DNA of 30,547 bases from a virus. Of this stretch, positions 20,071-30,539 are shown piece by piece. How positions within the stretch are numbered: the stretch's first letter is position 1; each line of letters opens with the position of its first letter. The stretch covers positions 1 to 30,547 of the IMG/VR virus record IMGVR_UViG_3300049916_000661. One strand, 5' to 3'. The notes below the pieces were generated by a model, which was not told where the DNA came from, did not search any database, and saw only the letters and a program-made list of their open reading frames with translations. Position numbers and translations under genes: made by a program.

Positions 20071-20469
20071 TTATTTATACGAGGTTGTGGCCTCTGTTGT
20101 AGTTTTTCCCTTAAAGTCTCCTTTAAGTTTTTTTAATCTTTCAGACTCGGTTTTTTTAATTCCGGGTAAAAGTTTCTTTGCGATTTTTTTAATGGCTGCA
20201 GATTTAGCTTGCACTTTTTTATCTACTGCTATTTTTTCGCCATACGACATCGAATTATAATTTTTGTCTTTAATAAATTTTTTTCTTATAATATCTCTTG
20301 CCTTTGCTTGCGCCTTTTTCTTCAACTTTTCAGGAGAAGCTTTTTTCTTAGCAGCCATTTTTCTTTTCATCGCAAGCTTAGGGGCAAGTCTTTTCATTTG
20401 CTTACTTCTTGCAATTCTTTGCTGAGGTGTTAAAGGCTTCTCAACTAGAAACTGTGAGAAACTCATCAT
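20071..20469 (-). CDS. Very basic protein with capsid-targeting-like leader
   Basis: The start MMSFSQFLVEKPLTPQQRIA at ATG 20469 overlaps the upstream stop (ATGA); a longer frame to 20535 runs into that gene. The first residues (M-S-F-S-Q-F-L-V-E) resemble the T4 capsid-targeting sequence (M-K-x-Y-x-E-F-[IL]-x-E). The remainder is extremely Lys/Arg/Ala-rich (RLAPKLAMKRKMAAKKKASP), like T4 internal proteins or a DNA-condensing core protein. It is part of the putative head-protein cluster. DNA binding inside the head is inference. Confidence 0.6.
   Translation of the reverse strand: MMSFSQFLVEKPLTPQQRIARSKQMKRLAPKLAMKRKMAAKKKASPEKLKKKAQAKARDIIRKKFIKDKNYNSMSYGEKIAVDKKVQAKSAAIKKIAKKLLPGIKKTESERLKKLKGDFKGKTTTEATTSYK
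20072..20079 (-). promoter_or_regulatory. Late promoter for the 375-residue gene
   Basis: TATAAATA, 18 nt before ATG 20053, with AAAGGA between. The final bases belong to the TAA stop of the upstream basic-protein gene (20071-20073). Confidence 0.6.
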
Positions 20470-20765
20470 AGCGAAGGCGTTCCCCAAAAGATCATTGCTA
20501 CTGAACCAGTGATTAGTGCAGTGAGCGCGATCCAAAAGATTTTGTTTAATACACCTACTGCACCCTCTACGTCGTGGACTTTTGTCTCCACCTTTCTCAT
20601 TCTATCGTCAAGATCTTGAAGCTGTTGATGCTGTGCTATGTTTAAAGATTCAAGACCAGCTAGTTTTTCTTCTGCTCTCGCAATAGAAACAACTGCATCG
20701 GCGAGTTTATCGATCTTCTCTTCGATGCGGTCTAGTCTTGTTGATTCCCCTTTATTCATTGTCAT
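20466..20765 (-). CDS. XhlA-like coiled coil with C-terminal TM helix
   Basis: The 99-residue product has a long coiled coil (RLDRIEEKIDKLADAVVSIA; then LDDRMRKVETKVHDVEGAVG) and one C-terminal TM helix (FWIALTALITGSVAMIFWG). This layout matches XhlA/hemolysin-like phage proteins, which in Bacillus phages act with holins; in T4-like phages the role is unknown. An alternative start is ATG 20759. The next gene starts inside its stop codon. Confidence 0.6.
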   Translation of the reverse strand: MTMNKGESTRLDRIEEKIDKLADAVVSIARAEEKLAGLESLNIAQHQQLQDLDDRMRKVETKVHDVEGAVGVLNKIFWIALTALITGSVAMIFWGTPSL

Positions 20766-22247: not shown

Positions 22248-23744
22248 TCATCCTCCAAATTCGTGTCCAGCGACTCTTTTCATTTGTTTTTTATATTCTT
22301 CGAAATCTGGTTTTTTCTTGTAAAGCTTAATTGAAATCTCATCGCGGTCTTTACCTTTAATGCGCCATTTAAATCCCTTTTCCAAATGTTCAGGTTTAGT
22401 TGTCTTAACTACACGGCGTTTGAAACCATCTTCCCACGGTTCGCTTTTACCTTCGCCTTCCTCAAGACCTTCTGCATACATGTTATATCCACGAACGTCT
22501 TCTTTGTCTTGCATTTTCTTTATAAACTTTTCTGCATCCGATTGGTTCTTAAAAGACTTTTTCATCTTTTTGCCATTCCACAATTCGACTGAAGCAATTA
22601 CCTTTTTAGCTTCTTCGATATCTTCAGGCACACAATTGGGAACTTTCTTGTTTCCTTTTTTCTTCATGCCTACTTGTTTATATCCATCCCAACAATCTTC
22701 GGCTTGGCCAGGTGTATCTTTTTTATACGCCTTTGTCAATTCGTCAGATGGATAATCATTAGATTCTTTTTCTACAAATTCACCAAACTTTTTGCGATAA
22801 GCGAGTGTGTGTTTAGACACTTTAGTCTTTGCTCTAGCATCTCCAGGGGCAGGTTTATACGCCTTTGGATTATCATCAGACATTTTAGCCTGTTTATTAA
22901 ACTGCGCAGACCTTTTGTCCTTTGTTGACTTTGAAAGGTTTTTACCATAGGTTGGATTCAGCTTTTCAATAAAGTACTTTTTATCGTCTGTTGATATAAC
23001 ATAATTTGATTTACGTTCTTTAATAATTATTTCTACGTCTTCAGCGTACACATTATCACCAACATTAAATATTTCACCTGAAATATATTGTTCTCTTTTT
23101 TCTGATATTGCTGGTAGTTGTATGTGCTTTCTAAAATTATTCATTTCCTTTAATCCCATTCTTTTACGAAGTAGATTAAAGAGTGTCATATCTTCGCCAT
23201 ACGCCTTTGGTAAACCCATTGTAAACGATTTAAAGTCTCCGTCTATTACGGCTTGTCGCATTTTAGATGCACTCATACCTGATACACCTTCAGCGTCTGG
23301 ATCACGTTCGCCAGCTGATGCGATTTCAATACCATCTTTAAAGTTGTAATAGCCATGACGCCCTTTAGCACCATTGTATTGATTCAAAAGTTTTTGAAAT
23401 TCTTTTACTCGATCTGATCCTACGACCATAGTGATTTTAGTAAACCCCTGATCAAATAATATTGATGCAATGTGTAGTGCTGTTTTTGCGTTTTTATCTT
23501 CGATAATGCTACGGCCGTGCTTTGGAAACATTTTGCGCATTACTTTAATTTTTTCTTTATATTCTAAAGGATTCTTTTTAGCGTCACTAGATTGTGAAGC
23601 GTAGATGCGATAATCATTTCCTCTTGCAAGTGATGCGACTTTAGCAAGCAATTTTCCATGTCCTATTGTAGGAGGATTAAACCTACCAAACGTAAAGATT
23701 ACTTCTCTCTTTTTATCTTCGTTATATTCTTTAAATGATTTCAT
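22248..23744 (-). CDS. Nucleotidylyltransferase fused to virion-type tail
   Basis: Residues 1-200 form a cytidylyltransferase-like (NadR/NMNAT-type) domain: FTFGRFNPPTIGHGKLL with the HxGH-type TIGH (26-29), VVGSDR, and GMSASKMRQA (156-165), the I-S-x-[ST]-x-x-R phosphate-binding loop. It starts MKSFKEYNED, similar to the T4 capsid-targeting leader. The other 300 residues include a GDNVYAEDVEI barrel-like segment, a C-W-D-G-Y...P-N-C-V module (351-372) common in marine phage structural proteins, and possible gp21 sites IEE|A (376-378) and LEE|G (427-429). NAD-related or other nucleotidyl transfer is expected; packaging in the head is inference. Confidence 0.7.
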   Translation of the reverse strand: MKSFKEYNEDKKREVIFTFGRFNPPTIGHGKLLAKVASLARGNDYRIYASQSSDAKKNPLEYKEKIKVMRKMFPKHGRSIIEDKNAKTALHIASILFDQGFTKITMVVGSDRVKEFQKLLNQYNGAKGRHGYYNFKDGIEIASAGERDPDAEGVSGMSASKMRQAVIDGDFKSFTMGLPKAYGEDMTLFNLLRKRMGLKEMNNFRKHIQLPAISEKREQYISGEIFNVGDNVYAEDVEIIIKERKSNYVISTDDKKYFIEKLNPTYGKNLSKSTKDKRSAQFNKQAKMSDDNPKAYKPAPGDARAKTKVSKHTLAYRKKFGEFVEKESNDYPSDELTKAYKKDTPGQAEDCWDGYKQVGMKKKGNKKVPNCVPEDIEEAKKVIASVELWNGKKMKKSFKNQSDAEKFIKKMQDKEDVRGYNMYAEGLEEGEGKSEPWEDGFKRRVVKTTKPEHLEKGFKWRIKGKDRDEISIKLYKKKPDFEEYKKQMKRVAGHEFGG

Positions 23745-24106
23745 TTCTTTTTTGATAAAGTAATTTTACGCTTATAGGCGCCACTCGCCATTTTCTCTTC
23801 TACCTGAATAAGCGTTCTTATTTTTGATTGCAGAGGTGATTCAAGATCGCTGTCTGTAATTTTTCCTATTACGCTATAAAGCGCGGAGTAATTACCACGC
23901 TTAGAAAGTTTTTCGAGTTCTTTTATTTGACGCGCTACATCTTTCTTTAAACCTTCGTAATCGTATTTTGCTAAACCTACTACTACGACTGCAGGATTTT
24001 CAGGACTTGCAATAGTCTGTGGATCGTCCATTACGATATATCCAGAAACTTCTGTTTTAGTTCTAGCTTCTTTTAATACGCTTATTGCTCTGTTTATCGT
24101 TCCCAT
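23741..24106 (-). CDS. Small soluble protein of the head cluster
   Basis: A 121-residue alpha/beta protein that starts MGTINRAISVLKEARTKTEV, then has strands (GYIVMDDPQT; PAVVVVGLAKYDYEGLKKDV) and a helical, basic end (KRKITLSKKK). Its start overlaps the preceding gene by 13 nt and it overlaps the nucleotidylyltransferase start (ATGA). No family recognised. Confidence 0.55.
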   Translation of the reverse strand: MGTINRAISVLKEARTKTEVSGYIVMDDPQTIASPENPAVVVVGLAKYDYEGLKKDVARQIKELEKLSKRGNYSALYSVIGKITDSDLESPLQSKIRTLIQVEEKMASGAYKRKITLSKKK

Positions 24107-25602
24107 CCTTTTATTACGTCCTTTGAAAAATTGTTTGTTGAAAATTCTAATCGATCAACCAATTTAACTGCGCCACCTTGATTGTCAATGGCGACAAAAC
24201 CTTCCGAACCAGTAACTTTAAATCCATTCTTAGTTCTAACAAAGGTGTCAATTGATTTGACCTTATCTAATTTATTTATAATGATTAATTTCGCATCAAC
24301 TATTGCATTCATAAGTTGAAACATTAAATCTAGATTTTTTTTATTATCTTTTGAAAAGAAACGCATTTCATCCTGTTGGCGTTGTAACACCGCTTCTTTT
24401 CCTTTAACGCTTGACCTTTTGTCGTATTCCTTTTTGTATTTTTCGTCAAACCATTTTATCAAATCCTTAACGTGCTTTGCAGTATTCATAATACGCTGTC
24501 CTTTGCGTACAAGTGTATTATTGAACGTTTCTATTTTAATTGCTAAAGCTGTATTATTTTCTAGTTCGTATAAAGTTGTTGACTTAATCTTTTGAAATAT
24601 TTTACCAGCCTTTGAAAGTTGTTCAGTAACTTCATCGGTATCAACAGATGTTAAAGTAGCAGTGCCTGATAAATCTTTGTATTCAGCATCTTGATACCAC
24701 ACACTTGATTTCTTTTTTAGTCCTTTAAGGTTTACGCCGAATGACGCTTTCATAGAAGCAAAGTCTTTACCTTTGTATGTTGTATGCCATACGACTCCAA
24801 GATTCGCTTGTGTGATTTCTTTTGCTAAATTCGATTTTGTTGGAACTGCGTAAACAATTGTGTTCGGTTGAAATGTAATCATTTTTTCACCGTCAATTGT
24901 TTCACTACTTAAATCGCCTTTTGTAAACATTACATCGCCCTGAATAACATCTTTGATACCAAGATCTTTAAGTTCGTTAAATGCTACTACTAACTTTTCC
25001 GCAAGATCTCCAGAAGTGTCAGCTCTTACTTCAGCTTCTGACTTATAGACTTTAGGATCTTTATTGAAGATACCCTTTTTAGCAACAAAGAATTGTCCAT
25101 CACTTGGATCGATACCCGCAAATACTGCTGGTGCACCATCCCACTTTACTGTAACATCAGTAGATGAGCTGTTATTGCCAGCAAGCATATCTCTTAAAGA
25201 ACGAAGAGCAAAAATCGCTTCCCTTGCACCTTTCACACCACCGTAAATTACACGGTCTTCAATGTGTGTCATGTGAGTATTCTTACCAGCTTTAGATGCT
25301 TCTGACAAGTAATCACTAAAAGATTTTACATTCTTTGGTTCTTCGATTTCTATTACTAAGTTAGTTGAACCTGCTTTGTAAATTCTATGGTATTCCATTT
25401 TAGAAATATTTAAAACATCACCTTCTTCTAATTCATACGGAATACTATTATCCATTTGGAACATCCAACCATTTCCTTCAAGCACCGTTATAACACGATC
25501 GCTTTTATCGCGATGCCAAACTAGTTCGTGCGAATCGGTGTTTGATTCAAATGTACGGGTTTTAAATCTACCGTTTACTTTATCTGTGTAAGGTTTACTC
25601 AT
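24094..25602 (-). CDS. Cupin fused to KxDG-motif nucleotidyltransferase-like domain
   Basis: I start at ATG 25602 (MSKPYTDKVNGRF), right after the upstream stop; 25626 is an alternative. Residues 1-90 are a cupin (HELVWHRDKSDRVITVLEG, YELEEGDVLNISKMEYHR). Then comes FSDYLSE|ASKAG (about 95-105), which resembles both a capsid-targeting sequence and a gp21 cleavage site. From about 112 a domain with VKWDGAPAVFAG (Lys153-x-Asp-Gly), IQGDVMF and VVWHTTYKG resembles motifs I, III and IV of DNA/RNA ligases. Related proteins are common, unnamed, in marine T4-like phages. Ligase activity is a hypothesis. Confidence 0.65.
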   Translation of the reverse strand: MSKPYTDKVNGRFKTRTFESNTDSHELVWHRDKSDRVITVLEGNGWMFQMDNSIPYELEEGDVLNISKMEYHRIYKAGSTNLVIEIEEPKNVKSFSDYLSEASKAGKNTHMTHIEDRVIYGGVKGAREAIFALRSLRDMLAGNNSSSTDVTVKWDGAPAVFAGIDPSDGQFFVAKKGIFNKDPKVYKSEAEVRADTSGDLAEKLVVAFNELKDLGIKDVIQGDVMFTKGDLSSETIDGEKMITFQPNTIVYAVPTKSNLAKEITQANLGVVWHTTYKGKDFASMKASFGVNLKGLKKKSSVWYQDAEYKDLSGTATLTSVDTDEVTEQLSKAGKIFQKIKSTTLYELENNTALAIKIETFNNTLVRKGQRIMNTAKHVKDLIKWFDEKYKKEYDKRSSVKGKEAVLQRQQDEMRFFSKDNKKNLDLMFQLMNAIVDAKLIIINKLDKVKSIDTFVRTKNGFKVTGSEGFVAIDNQGGAVKLVDRLEFSTNNFSKDVIKGWER

Positions 25603-25603
25603 A

Positions 25604-26122
25604 TTACCAAAAGAAGTTTCCTCCATCTTTTAGGCCGAGTTGCGCTGCATATCGTGGAAGATTGCAGGACCAATAGCCTGGTTTTGTTTTATCCTTTTTG
25701 GCTGCGCAATTGTGACGTGCTGCAAATGATTTACGAGCAGCTGGATCGCTGATTTTTGCTTTAAGACCAGATGTATCGCCAAACTGCACTTTAATCACAT
25801 TGCCTTTTTCATTTTTGACGTAGACGTAAAATTTCTTTTTACCGCCACGCTTTGGGTCGTTAAGTTCAACCTCTTTACCTTTATACTCTGCTTCAACTAA
25901 TGGGTGATCTAAAGGTACTTCTACACCTTCATACATTGCAAGTTCACCAATGTCTGTTGACATGAGATAATCGTCAAACTCATTTAAGAATACAGATTCT
26001 TTTAAAGTTTTTGCTTCTCTAAAAAGTTTGTAGTAGTTTTCACTGTGAGGACGAAAGATATTTTGTGCTAATGGTATATCGTTTTCCTTATGAAATAATA
26101 TTGCCTTTTCTACTATGTCCAT
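25604..26122 (-). CDS. Marine-phage structural-type protein with RHNC domain
   Basis: The 172-residue product has an N-terminal helical part (ILFHKENDIPLAQNIFRPHS then YYKLFREAKTL) and an acidic linker. Its C-terminal domain has KVQFGDTSGLKAKISDPAAR, FAARHNCAAKKDKTKPGYWS and CNLPRYAAQLG. The F-x-A-R-H-N-C...K-x-K-x-x-Y-W-S-C pattern is a common unnamed domain in marine T4-like phage genomes; its two Cys and His may bind metal. Coupled to both neighbours. Function unknown. Confidence 0.65.
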   Translation of the reverse strand: MDIVEKAILFHKENDIPLAQNIFRPHSENYYKLFREAKTLKESVFLNEFDDYLMSTDIGELAMYEGVEVPLDHPLVEAEYKGKEVELNDPKRGGKKKFYVYVKNEKGNVIKVQFGDTSGLKAKISDPAARKSFAARHNCAAKKDKTKPGYWSCNLPRYAAQLGLKDGGNFFW

Positions 26123-27102
26123 TAAATAAATTCGCCAGTGGATTTAGGTTTTTGTCCTTTTGGAAACACTCCAAGTCGAACATTCGCAATACCAAATTGG
26201 CCGCGAGTTCCTTGATAACGTGCCACGTAGTACGCATCATACTCGCCCTTTGGTTCTTCACCATTATTAGCATAGTGAGTAGATACAATCTTATAACCCT
26301 TACCGGTCTTCTTAAGTTTCATATGACCTTGGTGAAATTCATCTACATTGTTTCGTCCACGTTTCTTACCGTAATCAATTCCCCAAACAGATTGATGAAT
26401 AACTTTGCTATCTTTTACTTCGCGCCAAAATGATTCTTTTCTAGCTAAACCATTTGGTCGTAATTCGCGAACATCTTCAATAAATTTTTGTACACCCTTT
26501 GCTTGTTGTAAAACCGGATGAGTAACACCGCCGTATTGTTGAAAATCTTTTGATGTCTTACCCGCTTTATGCGATATCCATGCAACTTCATCACCATTTA
26601 AATCTTTTAGATGAAAATCGGCCTTTGGAACACCTGGTGTAGATTCCATTGCAACAACGTCTTTTAATCGACGCTTGCCAACGATAAGATCAAGCGAAGA
26701 TACTTTATTTTTCGCCATAACCTTTGTCATTTCCTTTTGAAATTCTGCTAAGTGAGCATCTTCTGCTGCGGTTCCAGCACCAACACCCTTGCCGCCAAAA
26801 TCAGGTGTCTTGTAAAAGTCACGAGGGTATTCTACTTTCACGCGGCCTTTATCTAGCTTACCTTCAAACGAGCTTCTAAATCCTTTTTTATCGAATGGTG
26901 TAGCTTTAGTGGCATCGGCAAAAGATTTTTTATCGATAATAACATTACCATGAGTAGTAAGAAACGGATCACCGTTTTTAATTTTATCTTTAAATACCGC
27001 TAATCGCAATCCACCGCGTTTAGTAAGATCGTTGTGTTTTAAAGCTGCGTACGCCGCAGCTTCACCCAGAAAGAATGTTTTAAATGAATTTAAATTAAGC
27101 AT
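26122..27102 (-). CDS. PD-(D/E)xK-like protein with capsid-targeting leader
   Basis: The 326-residue protein starts MLNLNSFKTFFLGEAAAYAA: a T4-like targeting leader with a perfect gp21 site LGE|A at 12-14. In the middle FGGKGVGAGTAAEDAHLAEF (102-121) supplies an acidic residue, PKADFHLKDLNGDEVAWISHK (159-179) is split here as PKADFHL then AWISHK, and together they resemble the E...P-x-D-x(n)-[ILV]-x-x-K core of restriction-type nucleases. It may be a nuclease delivered with the genome. The assignment is by eye and needs structural support. Confidence 0.6.
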   Translation of the reverse strand: MLNLNSFKTFFLGEAAAYAALKHNDLTKRGGLRLAVFKDKIKNGDPFLTTHGNVIIDKKSFADATKATPFDKKGFRSSFEGKLDKGRVKVEYPRDFYKTPDFGGKGVGAGTAAEDAHLAEFQKEMTKVMAKNKVSSLDLIVGKRRLKDVVAMESTPGVPKADFHLKDLNGDEVAWISHKAGKTSKDFQQYGGVTHPVLQQAKGVQKFIEDVRELRPNGLARKESFWREVKDSKVIHQSVWGIDYGKKRGRNNVDEFHQGHMKLKKTGKGYKIVSTHYANNGEEPKGEYDAYYVARYQGTRGQFGIANVRLGVFPKGQKPKSTGEFI

Positions 27103-28636
27103 ATGTTTCGATCATTCGTGTTAAATCGCTATCCGAAATATTTACTCCTGATTTAAGAGTACCAGCCTGCATATTTAAAGCGCGGGAAAGTTTACGTAAG
27201 TTAGCAGTTTGCTTAGACTTACCTTTTCGAAGTAAGTCAACTGTCTTTTTGCGTGTTGCTGAATCTAAATTTAAATCACCATCTAATTTAATTTTGTCAA
27301 CGATACTTTCCATAAAGTCATAGATTTCTATGTCTGTCGGATCGATCTCAATCATAAATGCTCGAGTACGTATTGCGCCATCAGGATCAAGCTTATCCAT
27401 CTTTAAATTCGAGATGAAAATAACCTTACCTGTAAATTCAAAGAAGCGCGGAATCTTCCCATCATCAATAAGTTCTTGTGGATCTTCGTATTCGTCGGGC
27501 TCAACAACGTTTTTGCCCATTTTATTCCATACGAGTTTCCTTACCTTTTTCGTATCAGTAGCAGCCTTAAACATATTGCGTGCTTCCTGATCCTTTAATG
27601 CATCATCAGAATCATCAAACAAGACAATATCGTTTTGATACTTAAATAGAAGTGAATAGATACCAGCAGCAGATGCTGTACCGGTGTTTTTAAAGTAACC
27701 ATTACCATCTTGTAAACCGATCTCGCCTAAAACTTTTTCAACTGTGTATGTTTTACCAATACCACCTCGACCTGCAATAAAGAGCGCATTAGATGCACCA
27801 GATGCAGTCATCTTAATAAGATTTTCAAGGTCGGCAAGTTGCTTTTCGTAAGTAAGTTTTTCTCGGTTTGCTTCTAATTCGTCAAGCTGTGAGTTATGCG
27901 CATAGGTTTCTTTAGCTGAACCACTACGAATAGTTCCTGAAGTTGCACCAATAGCAGTAAGAATATTTGACTTCTGTGAAAGAAGTTTCTTTTCATCTTT
28001 CTTACTACCTTTCCAAATGTATTGTCTTCCTACTTTTTTAATGATAGCAGGATTCTGAGCTTCCATTTCATCAAAGATTTTAATACCCACAGACTTCCAA
28101 ACTTTAAATACCTTTTGTTTAGTAAATCCTGGACTTGAAATAAGTGAAACTACATTATCGTAAGCATCGTCAGGATCAACCGCTTCTGTAATACATTTAA
28201 GATCTTCAGGGGTAAAATCTTCTTTTAGCGAAATATCTGTTGGGTAAGATGTAAATGGACCACTTTTTACTTTACCGCTTTTTACCATATCAGCGACTTG
28301 AGGAAGTACTTGGACCAATGATACGTCTCTATCAAATGAGATGTGGTAAGTCGGGCCTTGTGTTGAACCATTCCACATATCAATTGAACTTAAGTTTTGT
28401 GAACTAGCTCCACCTACACTTTTCCAATTGAATCGAATAGATTCAATTTTTTTACCTGGTGCATAATAACGTAAACCGTAACCTGCTCCATTTGAGTTTT
28501 TAAATCGTTCCAATCCTAAGTTTGCAAACATTGACTTGATACCGGTCTTTTTGCGGAGGTACCTTAGGATGATGTTGCCAGCTTTTTCTAGAGAACCAGT
28601 GGCGAGTTCTTCGGTAATATAATCTTTAAATTGCAT
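27095..28636 (-). CDS. AAA+ ATPase with capsid-targeting-like leader
   Basis: I start at MQFKDYITEEL (ATG 28636), using the upstream GGGAAC as ribosome-binding site; ATG 28645 adds MGT. The 513-residue product has an N-terminal region of about 150 residues ending in CITE|A (149-152), a gp21-like site, and then an AAA+ module: Walker A GRGGIGKT (289-296), Walker B IVLFDDSD (337-344), sensor-1 Asn in VIFISN, and an Arg-rich AIRTRAF. It is a P-loop ATPase conserved in marine T4-like phages with unknown role. It opens the late transcription unit that runs to the PD-(D/E)xK-like gene and beyond. Confidence 0.8.
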   Translation of the reverse strand: MQFKDYITEELATGSLEKAGNIILRYLRKKTGIKSMFANLGLERFKNSNGAGYGLRYYAPGKKIESIRFNWKSVGGASSQNLSSIDMWNGSTQGPTYHISFDRDVSLVQVLPQVADMVKSGKVKSGPFTSYPTDISLKEDFTPEDLKCITEAVDPDDAYDNVVSLISSPGFTKQKVFKVWKSVGIKIFDEMEAQNPAIIKKVGRQYIWKGSKKDEKKLLSQKSNILTAIGATSGTIRSGSAKETYAHNSQLDELEANREKLTYEKQLADLENLIKMTASGASNALFIAGRGGIGKTYTVEKVLGEIGLQDGNGYFKNTGTASAAGIYSLLFKYQNDIVLFDDSDDALKDQEARNMFKAATDTKKVRKLVWNKMGKNVVEPDEYEDPQELIDDGKIPRFFEFTGKVIFISNLKMDKLDPDGAIRTRAFMIEIDPTDIEIYDFMESIVDKIKLDGDLNLDSATRKKTVDLLRKGKSKQTANLRKLSRALNMQAGTLKSGVNISDSDLTRMIETYA

Positions 28637-28669
28637 AGTTCCCATAGTCTTAGTTGATAAATAAGTGAT

Positions 28670-28698: not shown

Positions 28699-29175
28699 TT
28701 AATAATGTGCCCATTTGCATTTTTTCCATTGACTTTGTTCGAACCATCGTATAAATAAGCCTCGCTCGCGGCCGTGCGCCTCAATTTCCCACGGGTGGTC
28801 GTAGTAGTTTACCTTTTCCCATTCTACGTTAACACCTTTCCATTTACAAAGCTTAATGGTTCGTGAAAAATCTTTGAGTTCACCACGAGCATATTGCTTT
28901 ACGTGGACCATCTCATGCGCTACAGTTGATAGCATTTCTTGCAAAGGTTGCGATGAGTTAACACGTATAGTAAATTCACGAGGCCTATTACAAGATTCAT
29001 CTTCCCATATACAATCTCCGGACAAGCCATCCTTTTCATCAAGCTTATTGATTAAACGTATATCGATAAAAAGTTTATGTTGTAGACGAGGCATGAGATG
29101 TAGGCCTACCCAATGAGCAATGTCACCAGCCATTTCTCTTTTCTTAGATCCAGAACCTACAACGCTAATAAACAT
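28699..29175 (-). CDS. SprT-like zinc metalloprotease
   Basis: The 158-residue protein has the zincin motif VAHEMVHVKQ (HEMVH at 87-91) and a later YDHPWEIEAHGRE that can supply the third ligand or the Met-turn region, as in SprT/Wss1-like proteases. A CIWEDESC pair could hold a structural metal. SprT family proteins cut DNA-bound proteins; phage forms are common in marine T4-like genomes and could remodel host or virion proteins. Its start overlaps the helicase stop (TAATG-type), so it follows the helicase on one message. Confidence 0.78.
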   Translation of the reverse strand: MFISVVGSGSKKREMAGDIAHWVGLHLMPRLQHKLFIDIRLINKLDEKDGLSGDCIWEDESCNRPREFTIRVNSSQPLQEMLSTVAHEMVHVKQYARGELKDFSRTIKLCKWKGVNVEWEKVNYYDHPWEIEAHGRERGLFIRWFEQSQWKKCKWAHY

Positions 29176-30539
29176 TATATCTTAAATGCACTAAAGTCGT
29201 TATTCGCCGGAGCTGCAGGTGTAGTGATTTCGTCACTTGATAATGTTTGAGCTGATTCTTCTACATCATATAGTCGCATTTTAGATCGATCAATTCCAAC
29301 AACAAACCTTTTGTCTTGTGTAGGATCATTGTAACGATTTTTAAGTTGCTTTACCATTAGTTGATTCATACCTTCAAGTTGTTCTGTAGATATAAGAGCA
29401 AGCATCAAGTCAGCCGTTGCCGGTAAACCAAATGATTCTGACGTATCTGTAAGTTCAACGTCGGTATTACCAAATCCTGTACGAGTAACTTGGGTTGCAG
29501 ACCAGATGGGTACGTTATGTTCAACTGCAAGACCGCGTAATTCTTCAGCGATTGCTTTAATTAACGAATAAGTATTTATAGATCCACTAAGACCCTTCAT
29601 TCGCGAACTACCACAGATGTTCAAATAGTCAACATAGATTACATCTGGTTTGAAATCTTTCTTTAGCTTAAGTTCATCTAATAGCGCCCTGAAATGTCCT
29701 ACGTGCGCTGTCGCTGTAGGGTATTCTTTGACGATAAGGCGGCCTCGTGTTTTGCCTTTGAGTTTGTCGACTTTGGAATCAAATAATTCGCGAGGCAACG
29801 TCTCAAGTTGATCAATCGGCACGTCAAATAAGTTTGCGTCGATTCTTTCAGCAATCCTTTCTTCTGCCATTTCCATGGTGATATAAAGCACGTTTTGTCC
29901 CATGGAGAGATTGGCAGAAGCAAAGTGACACATCGCCAAAGACTTTCCCACACCAGTACCTGCAAGTATAATATTAAGTGTCTTATTTGAGACACCACCT
30001 TTGGTAATTGTATTAAACATAGAAAGATCAAATGGTATTTTGTCTTCCTGTAGATGATAGAAATCATATCGTTTTTCTGAGTTTTCAAAATAATCGTGGC
30101 CGACATTAGTATCAAATGTAACACTTAGCGCTTTTGATAAAATACCAGGGATAGCACCATCAGTAAGTTCCTTTTCCTTACCATCGATGATGCCAATTGA
30201 TTTTATGATTGCAAGATATACTGCTCTTTGCTTACACCATTCCTCGGTCGAGTTCAGTAGCCATTCTCGTTCAACTTCTTCATGATTTTTCAGATCAAGT
30301 ATGAGATTATGAATTTCATTACGATTGCTTTTATTTATATAATCAGACTTTTGAAACTCAACATCAAGTGCCGAGGAGTTAGGAAGTTTGTTATATTTTT
30401 GTAAAAAGGAAAGTATAAGTTCATAGACTGGCTTTTTTTCATCTTCAAAATACTCTGCTTTTACGTGAGGTAAAGCCTTACGGCAATATTCTTCGTCGTT
30501 AATAATTGTTTTAAGTATTATCGTTTGCAGATTTGTCAT
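29175..30539 (-). CDS. 41: Replicative DNA helicase (T4 gp41, DnaB-like)
   Basis: The 454-residue hexameric helicase has a small N-terminal helical domain and a RecA-type core with Walker A AGTGVGKS (193-200), Walker B IYVD (301-304), the SATQ motif (347-350), and VKQLKNRYNDP near residue 396-406, where DnaB-like helicases have their arginine finger. The T4 protein has 475 residues. It unwinds DNA 5' to 3' at the fork with the primase. The acidic/Ala-Pro tail and closing DFSAFKI are typical of phage members. The complete gene lies in the window, 8 nt from its right edge. Confidence 0.93.
   Translation of the reverse strand: MTNLQTIILKTIINDEEYCRKALPHVKAEYFEDEKKPVYELILSFLQKYNKLPNSSALDVEFQKSDYINKSNRNEIHNLILDLKNHEEVEREWLLNSTEEWCKQRAVYLAIIKSIGIIDGKEKELTDGAIPGILSKALSVTFDTNVGHDYFENSEKRYDFYHLQEDKIPFDLSMFNTITKGGVSNKTLNIILAGTGVGKSLAMCHFASANLSMGQNVLYITMEMAEERIAERIDANLFDVPIDQLETLPRELFDSKVDKLKGKTRGRLIVKEYPTATAHVGHFRALLDELKLKKDFKPDVIYVDYLNICGSSRMKGLSGSINTYSLIKAIAEELRGLAVEHNVPIWSATQVTRTGFGNTDVELTDTSESFGLPATADLMLALISTEQLEGMNQLMVKQLKNRYNDPTQDKRFVVGIDRSKMRLYDVEESAQTLSSDEITTPAAPANNDFSAFKI

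Follow-up and report, generated by a model that had tools for sequence, protein, structure and literature searches.

DUF6267, a candidate ligase-type nucleotidyltransferase of T4-like phages that carries a capsid-targeting-like peptide in one lineage

The subject of this report is a cupin–DUF6267 fusion protein encoded on the minus strand of IMG/VR virus record IMGVR_UViG_3300049916_000661 (positions 1 to 30,547); this whole stretch of 30547 bases, hereafter the window, carries T4-like replication genes. Within the protein a cupin domain, a short capsid-targeting-like peptide and a domain of Pfam family DUF6267 follow one another, and the last of these (aa 116-501; aa, amino acids) is read here as a covalent nucleotidyltransferase of the polynucleotide ligase/capping superfamily, ligase-type but divergent, and packaged in the lineage of the window, a reading given a probability of about 0.6. 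That DUF6267 has the ligase-superfamily fold with a catalytic lysine is highly probable; packaging of the window protein in the phage head is probable, and nucleic-acid joining is the somewhat favoured job of the domain.

Predicted fold and invariant motifs

The fold was approached through a compact 303-aa relative (locus L168), whose AlphaFold model (predicted local distance difference test, pLDDT, 91.6; predicted template modelling score, pTM, 0.86; 42 sequences) stands beside that of the window protein (pLDDT 87.3, pTM 0.73; 76 sequences). When 995 of Foldseek's top 1000 chains for the L168 model were aligned with VIA, 49 of the 50 matches listed were named RNA, tRNA or DNA ligases, and the remaining row, 9cq6_F, is a chain of a non-homologous end-joining ligation complex. 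The best listed match was the nick-sealing RNA ligase of Naegleria gruberi, NgrRnl (6vt1; Z 8.5, 175 residues, root-mean-square deviation (rmsd) 3.9), and alignments were also obtained with T4 RNA ligase 1 (Rnl1, 5tt6; Z 8.2, 155 residues, rmsd 3.5), T4 RNA ligase 2 (Rnl2, 2hvr; Z 6.7, 169 residues, rmsd 4.3) and TbREL1 (Z 6.4). The aligned range of NgrRnl (143-339) takes in R149, K170, D172, E227, E312 and K326, and that of Rnl1 (73-252) takes in K99, all residues named in the titles of the structure entries. In the viral structure library BFVD, the 21 top rows for the same model were taken as the family itself (the first one verified), and of the 29 rows listed after them 14 are named ligases, with a best E of 4.7e-3. 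The core fold of the superfamily is found in the predicted model of this relative, at scores that are middling.

DUF6267 proteins from 327 gathered loci were aligned with that of the window, giving 328 sequences in 275 distinct rows; residue numbers follow the 510-aa form of the window protein, in which K161 corresponds to Lys153 of the initial annotation, counted from a start at 25602. Invariant throughout (328/328) are H118, H121, E123, D124, K161, D163, G164, G171, F180, V181, K184, F187, Q229, D231, P254, N255, Y259, H281, T282, Y284, N370 and K446, while towards the C-terminus G476, V478 and K488 are kept in 326/326, E475 in 325/326 and R492 in 325/325 of those sequences (of 328) with a residue at that place. 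The initial annotation had proposed KWDGAPAVF (161-169) as the K-x-D-G of motif I, IQGDVMF (228-234) as motif III, VVWHTTYKG (278-286) as motif IV and FSDYLSE/A (103-110; the slash marks a proposed cut) as a targeting peptide, and all four strings are present. Motif I is borne out, with K, D and G at 328/328 and the lysine passing the proposed conservation check; motif III is plausible, Q and D being invariant, although QGD is unlike the usual G-E. Motif IV had been misplaced, for HT-x-Y is invariant, yet EGxV at 475-478 and K488, past a mostly helical insert and near the C-terminus, are the better motifs IV and V. These judgements follow from the motif order in 99%-identical copies of the two T4 enzymes, where Rnl1 has KEDG at 99, EGYV at 227 and K at 240, and Rnl2 has KIHG at 35, EGYV at 204 and K at 225.

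The DUF6267 proteins have the K-x-x-G of motif I with an invariant lysine, followed in order by EGxV and K, as is characteristic of the superfamily, and the invariant QxD and PNxxxY come in the order expected of motifs III and IIIa, as placed from sequence and not from a residue-level structural alignment. The ordered signature K.DG...EG[YFILVM]V...K was found in 316 of 317 DUF6267 ORFs (open reading frames). Among the 1364 other ORFs of 150 aa or more in loci L001-L327 (many of these loci being close relatives of one another) it was found in none. The covalent nucleotidyltransferase proposed in the initial annotation stands as far as the ligase-core fold and the conserved KxDG lysine go, and is qualified by the middling fold scores and by the modelling of a relative instead of the window protein.

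NgrRnl and T4 Rnl1 share with DUF6267 the core fold, across 155-178 residues, and the same succession of a K-x-D-G-like motif I lysine, EGxV and K, but the identity is 10-11% with no significant profile match, and DUF6267 differs in its helical insert before motif IV, in the additional invariant H-x2-H-x-E-D upstream, in QGD at the proposed motif III and in having no evident C-terminal accessory domain. The likeness to T4 Rnl2 and TbREL1 (Rnl2 family, PF09414) lies in the fold and, by eye in the Rnl2 copy, in the AKRTG that follows motif I and the K...KFS downstream of motif IV; membership of that family was not found, PF09414 matching in 0/19 DUF6267-bearing records and in the T4 control, nor is the Rnl2 C-terminal domain evident. 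T4 DNA ligase gp30 (PF01068) offers a parallel in a possible role as a phage ligase coded with replication genes, but there is no sequence match, the OB domain is not evident in DUF6267, and Stenotrophomonas phage DLP6 has both proteins; PF01068 matched at the DUF6267 place in 0/17 carriers, T4 and DLP6 matching elsewhere. Two elements, the helical insert and H-x2-H-x-E-D, are apparently particular to the DUF6267 family; at a guess, they may stand in for the accessory domain or bind the leaving group. A link to ligases by sequence alone was tried and set aside, phmmer and profile searches of PDB sequences giving chance-level matches only.

Distribution, gene neighbourhood and known ligases

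DUF6267 is more than the oddity of a cupin fusion: it is a ligase-resembling phage family of wide distribution and no assigned function, present in most T4-like phages of marine cyanobacteria and in some relatives of these, and ranging over cyanophages, pelagiphage HTVC008M, Methylophilales phages, C48C1 and DLP6. By name, its records comprise 371 Synechococcus-, 61 Cyanophage- and 24 Prochlorococcus- entries, and those of the helicase gp41 comprise 376 Synechococcus- and 61 Cyanophage- entries, in a collection that contains duplicates and with the two sets not matched record by record. Among cellular genome contigs, DUF6267 occurs at 37 loci, nearly all in metagenome bins and likely phage contigs. 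The domain matches its Pfam profile at 347.8 bits (curated cut-off 27), and the window protein also belongs to PHROG 455, of unknown function.

In the window, a DnaB/gp41-type helicase gene (29175-30539) precedes the DUF6267 ORF by ~3.5 kb, and an NMNAT/cytidylyltransferase-like gene follows it after 350 bases. Three of four clades have an NMNAT-like gene downstream of DUF6267 in the same orientation wherever 2.5 kb or more of downstream sequence is present (52/52, 43/43 and 47/47, or 142/142 loci; gaps of -6 to 781 bases), and in these clades gp41 lies upstream in 32/34, 36/37 and 38/41 (106/112) of the loci that have 3.8 kb or more on that side (gaps of 983 to 5197 bases). A verified fusion of the two neighbours is YP_007001680.1 of metaG-MbCM1 (728 aa; DUF6267 at 3-302, CTP_transf_like at 388-494), a DUF6267–CTP_transf_like protein that is annotated as 'NrdB ribonucleotide reductase A subunit' (L445, 2495-4681, NC_019443.1). 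Three further BFVD rows within the presumed family carry the name cytidyltransferase-like, by name only. Apparent single-ORF fusions at 39 of the loci L088-L167 are not counted as fusions, the match of the next gene starting within a few bases of the DUF6267 end (gaps of -6 to 9).

Known ligase families were searched for in records chosen for the presence of DUF6267 (19 of 20 by construction, T4 being the outlier), the carriers being nine named Kyanoviridae (11 in the PF09414 search), seven IMG/VR records possibly repeating named phages, and DLP6. Sixteen of 17 carriers gave no above-cut-off match to PF01068, PF01653 or PF09511, and the seventeenth, DLP6, has PF01068. Across 18 records, PF01068 exceeded its cut-off in T4 and DLP6 only, with one sub-threshold match of 44 positions in record G002; PF09511 did so in T4 only, with one weak broken match in S-SSM5; and PF01653 was found in 0/18, T4 included, its positive control being confined to the search tool's own genomes. 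PF09414 was found in T4 only among 20 records.

A passage of a 2010 review (PMC2984593) describes cyanomyoviruses as having no homologues of the g30 DNA ligase, and likewise of RNase H, S-PM2 excepted; it weighs distant homologues that had escaped identification against true absence, and prefers absence because host enzymes can substitute. DUF6267 is a candidate for such a distant ligase, an idea with which the closeness of its record counts to those of gp41 fits. If correct, it would assign a function to a gene whose cyanophage records are nearly as numerous as those of the core helicase gp41, and would put forward a definite candidate for the ligase that cyanomyoviruses were reported to lack, in keeping with its escape from sequence searches. 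In a full-text literature search no paper was found for DUF6267, and among the titles and abstract openings listed by searches on cyanophage ligases and capsid targeting none calls it a ligase.

The cupin and the capsid-targeting-like peptide

The cupin part, as initially annotated, has the predicted double-stranded beta-helix fold (Foldseek 2fqp, E 2.2e-4; VIA 5bxx, Z 10.8), the Pfam Cupin_2 match lying below cut-off (19 against 27.2 bits, E 0.0012). In the 80 nearest loci a cupin is fused N-terminally in ten and matched elsewhere in the locus in 26; being an occasional fusion or a separate element, it is not regarded as part of the enzyme core. By eye its metal site seems altered (WHRD for HxH), identically in the ten other fusions, where EYHRI is kept too. 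In loci L010, L015, L025 and L026, DUF6267 has a different N-terminal domain, by eye like the protein encoded next to it in the window at 25604-26122 (phrog_7595), and in L010 this domain opens with a tag of its own, MKSFIEHLSEAE.

Because the cupin is fused upstream, the targeting-like peptide of the window protein is internal, and a form of it is kept at the junction in all ten other cupin fusions (two with MKSF), or 11/11 with the window. The peptide conforms to the capsid-targeting pattern, about ten residues ending in [LI]xE before a small residue, and is N-terminal in unfused relatives. In the window clade, a loose [FL]xxY..LxE-like peptide stands no more than 22 residues before the domain in 69 of the 78 DUF6267 proteins that are not truncated at the 5' end, against 1/81, 0/83 and 5/79 in the other three clades; among isolates, it is clear in C48C1, Melnitz-3 and DLP6 and weak in HTVC008M. 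The T4 internal proteins IPII and IPIII begin MKTYQEFIAE/A, comparable with the MKSFKxYLxE/A of DUF6267 relatives, and differ in that the cargo here is a predicted enzyme and the window tag lies inside the chain, after the cupin; IPI does not fit the pattern. The end of the tag resembles the cleavage sites of T4 gp23 (SFLTE/A at 65/66) and gp24 (LLRE/S at 10/11), whose positions agree with the cleavage lengths of PMC9958956. The proposal of a targeting tag at FSDYLSE/A is supported by the resemblance to IPII and IPIII and by its occurrence at the start site of most unfused DUF6267 proteins of the clade, and its packaging role is best put as likely.

A strict form of the tag, with F first, was counted within the first 30 aa of other genes. 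In the window clade it occurs there in 82 of 516 distinct ORFs other than DUF6267, compared with 42 of 3917 later 30-aa segments (14.8-fold), and in ACG-2014a-type loci 53 of 337 ORFs against 15 of 2725; a first count of 133/639 was dropped, since it took in DUF6267 itself and near-identical copies. The strict form matches 0/52 T4 ORFs, because IPII and IPIII have Y at the first position. In the L168-L247 clade a tag-like motif occurs in 0/83 DUF6267 proteins but in 53/337 distinct other ORFs, and at L082 one opens the adjacent cytidylyltransferase gene (MKKFSAFLNEAE). The tag counts point to a simple rule by which these phages may bring some of their enzymes into the cell.

Two published virion proteomes bear on packaging indirectly and are consistent with it. 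Table 1 of PMC9146016 (30 rows) lists for the S-SZBM1 virion a tagged NMNAT-like protein (2 peptides) and does not list the untagged DUF6267 protein SSZBM1_141; for S-CREM2, section 18 of PMC10665884 gives a tagged NMNAT-like protein (3 peptides) and does not list the untagged DUF6267 (~58.9-59.8 kb), its authors cautioning that such virion proteins are possibly carry-over. The strict tag was present in 1/8 virion-detected proteins of these regions in S-CREM2 and 1/3 in S-SZBM1; several virion-detected proteins lack it, and it is therefore not needed for virion association.

Proposed mechanism, alternatives and feature coordinates

From the computed fold resemblance of the relative, the invariant motifs, the synteny and the pattern and enrichment of the tag, we infer a course running from adenylation and sealing, with substrate and cofactor, to packaging and cleavage. 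In the superfamily, as PMC4599027 sets out, AMP passes onto the motif I lysine, then onto a 5' phosphate, and sealing follows. With ATP or NAD+ as the nucleotide cofactor, K161 would make the attack and hold AMP as a lysyl adduct; the AMP would then be handed to a 5' phosphate at a break in DNA or RNA, and the strand would be sealed. In the family at large DUF6267 would act as an intracellular enzyme, its gene usually beside replication genes, and might be the ligase cyanomyoviruses were thought to lack. In the window lineage it would additionally bear a T4-type capsid-targeting peptide, and a prohead-protease cut after LSE, the cupin fusion leaving the tag internal, would trim or free the enzyme in the head, from which it could pass into the next host along with the genome. 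The link to the NMNAT-like gene raises NAD+ as a possible cofactor. More speculatively, DUF6267 would be the polynucleotide ligase missing from marine T4-like phages, preloaded and injected by the pelagiphage/methylophage-like lineage to mend the incoming genome, and perhaps using NAD+, with the NMNAT-like partner rebuilding NAD+ from released nicotinamide mononucleotide.

Several observations weigh against a packaged ligase. A Pfam scan of the window protein up to E 1 returned no ligase family, profiles A1 and A2 found no ligase among PDB sequences, and none of four hhalign comparisons with Rnl1 and Rnl2 was significant: three alignments cover the EGxV region only (E 0.05, 0.058 and 0.25) and the fourth consists of six unrelated residues (E 0.57); the DUF6267 EGxV comes into register with the EGYV of Rnl1, again at no significant score. 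Foldseek against the PDB ranked a DNA ligase first for the L168 model at an E of only 0.13 or worse, carbonic anhydrases appear among its rows, and the VIA Z of 8.5 is barely above the tool's typical best (7-8) for models with no clear match. For the full-length window model no ligase rows were among the matches listed, the cupin filling the lists, and for that reason the case for a ligase is built on the compact relative. Proposed motif III reads Q-G-D rather than G-E, and no counterpart is evident for the C-terminal accessory domain that most ligases have. In the ACG-2014f-type clade an NMNAT-like gene is nearby in just 3/47 loci, and in ACG-2014e-type loci the strict tag shows no enrichment (3/396 ORFs against 11/2461 later segments). 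Both proteomes come from phages with untagged DUF6267, neither representing a tag-bearing lineage. DLP6 carries a canonical DNA ligase together with DUF6267, and plain replacement is therefore not the whole story, nor is replacement required, since a host ligase can replace the phage ligase in T4 (PMC2984593).

The ligase-fold enzyme might, less probably, move its nucleotide to another acceptor (an RNA 5' end, a protein or a small molecule) and share a pathway with the NMNAT-like partner: neither an OB domain nor any other domain for nucleic acids is evident, the partner is tightly linked in three clades and truly fused at least once, a cupin is fused in some, and capping enzymes stand at rows 30 and 34 of the Foldseek list; against this, the 50 VIA rows listed are of ligases (families beyond the listed rows may exist) and the genes lie near replication genes. 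Loss of catalysis, leaving a nucleic-acid-binding or scaffold protein, would agree with the divergent motif III and the want of a significant sequence match to active ligases, but is very improbable given a motif I lysine kept in every sequence and a motif V lysine in all 326 with a residue there, untagged clades included. Hardly more probable is the absence of any ligase kinship, with KxDG and EGxV coincidental and the fold matches arising from a common beta-sheet arrangement; the middling Z scores, the Foldseek E values and the silent profiles speak for it, whereas the 50 listed VIA rows come from one superfamily, named ligases come next after the family in BFVD, and the motif order of the superfamily recurs among invariant positions.

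The SFxxYLxE peptide, in turn, could be some other docking tag or, in the fusion, a relic of a former N-terminus. Packaging of tagged DUF6267 proteins is deduced from the tag, which few virion-detected proteins of the two phages carry in strict form and T4 IPI lacks; such a reading is nonetheless unlikely in view of the match to the IPII and IPIII N-termini, the correspondence of the tag end to the gp23 and gp24 cleavage sites, the listing of a tagged NMNAT-like protein and not of untagged DUF6267 in both virions, and the retention of the tag in every cupin fusion. The packaged ligase-type nucleotidyltransferase is preferred to these readings, and its features are located in the window as follows.

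Positions of the cupin–DUF6267 protein, its motifs and its downstream neighbour in the window
Feature	Position	Strand	Basis or remark
Whole ORF	24094..25626	-	510 aa; likely start ATG 25602, giving 502 aa
Cupin domain, aa 9-99	25330..25602	-	weak Cupin_2 match and fold searches
Capsid-targeting-like peptide VKSFSDYLSE, aa 100-109	25300..25329	-	proposed cleavage E109/A110
DUF6267 (PF19782), aa 116-501, predicted ligase-like nucleotidyltransferase	24124..25281	-	Pfam E 1.3e-103 and fold of the relative
N-terminal motif H118-x2-H121-x-E123-D124	25255..25275	-	invariant 328/328
Motif I K161-W-D163-G164, predicted nucleotidylated lysine K161	25135..25146	-	K, D, G 328/328
FFVAKKGIF (179-187), invariant K184, motif Ia-like	25066..25092	-	place and by-eye resemblance to AKRTG of T4-type Rnl2
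Q229-G-D231, proposed motif III	24934..24942	-	Q, D 328/328; putative assignment
P254-N255-T-x2-Y259, proposed motif IIIa region	24850..24867	-	P, N, Y 328/328; putative assignment
H281-T282-T-Y284, initially annotated as motif IV	24775..24786	-	invariant; not motif IV
Mostly helical insert, aa 327-454	24265..24648	-	secondary structure of the model
Motif IV E475-G476-F-V478	24193..24204	-	G, V 326/326; E 325/326
Motif V region K488-L-V-D-R492	24151..24165	-	K 326/326; R 325/325
NMNAT/cytidylyltransferase-like neighbour	22248..23744	-	CTP_transf_like E 2.8e-5; kind fused to DUF6267 in metaG-MbCM1

The protein is coded on the minus strand, the plus strand at 24094-25602 having stop codons throughout; the 510 aa are counted from the first ATG, and the ATG at 25602 (MSKPYTDK) is preferred as the start, since that is where other cupin fusions (for example L007, L016 and L018) begin. 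Upstream, the minus-strand gene at 26122-27102 (phrog_13937) has no Pfam match above cut-off, is by eye PD-(D/E)XK nuclease-like (PKADF...SHKAG) and starts in a tag-like way, MLNLNSFKTFFLGEA. An AAA ATPase-like protein encoded at 27095-28645 (minus strand) has a capsid-targeting-like motif (MGTMQFKDYITEE), and a small lysine-rich protein at 20071-20535 (minus strand) is also tag-like at its internal start, MMSFSQFLVEK; with these tagged ATPase-like and lysine-rich genes, a cluster of packaged proteins in the window is possible.

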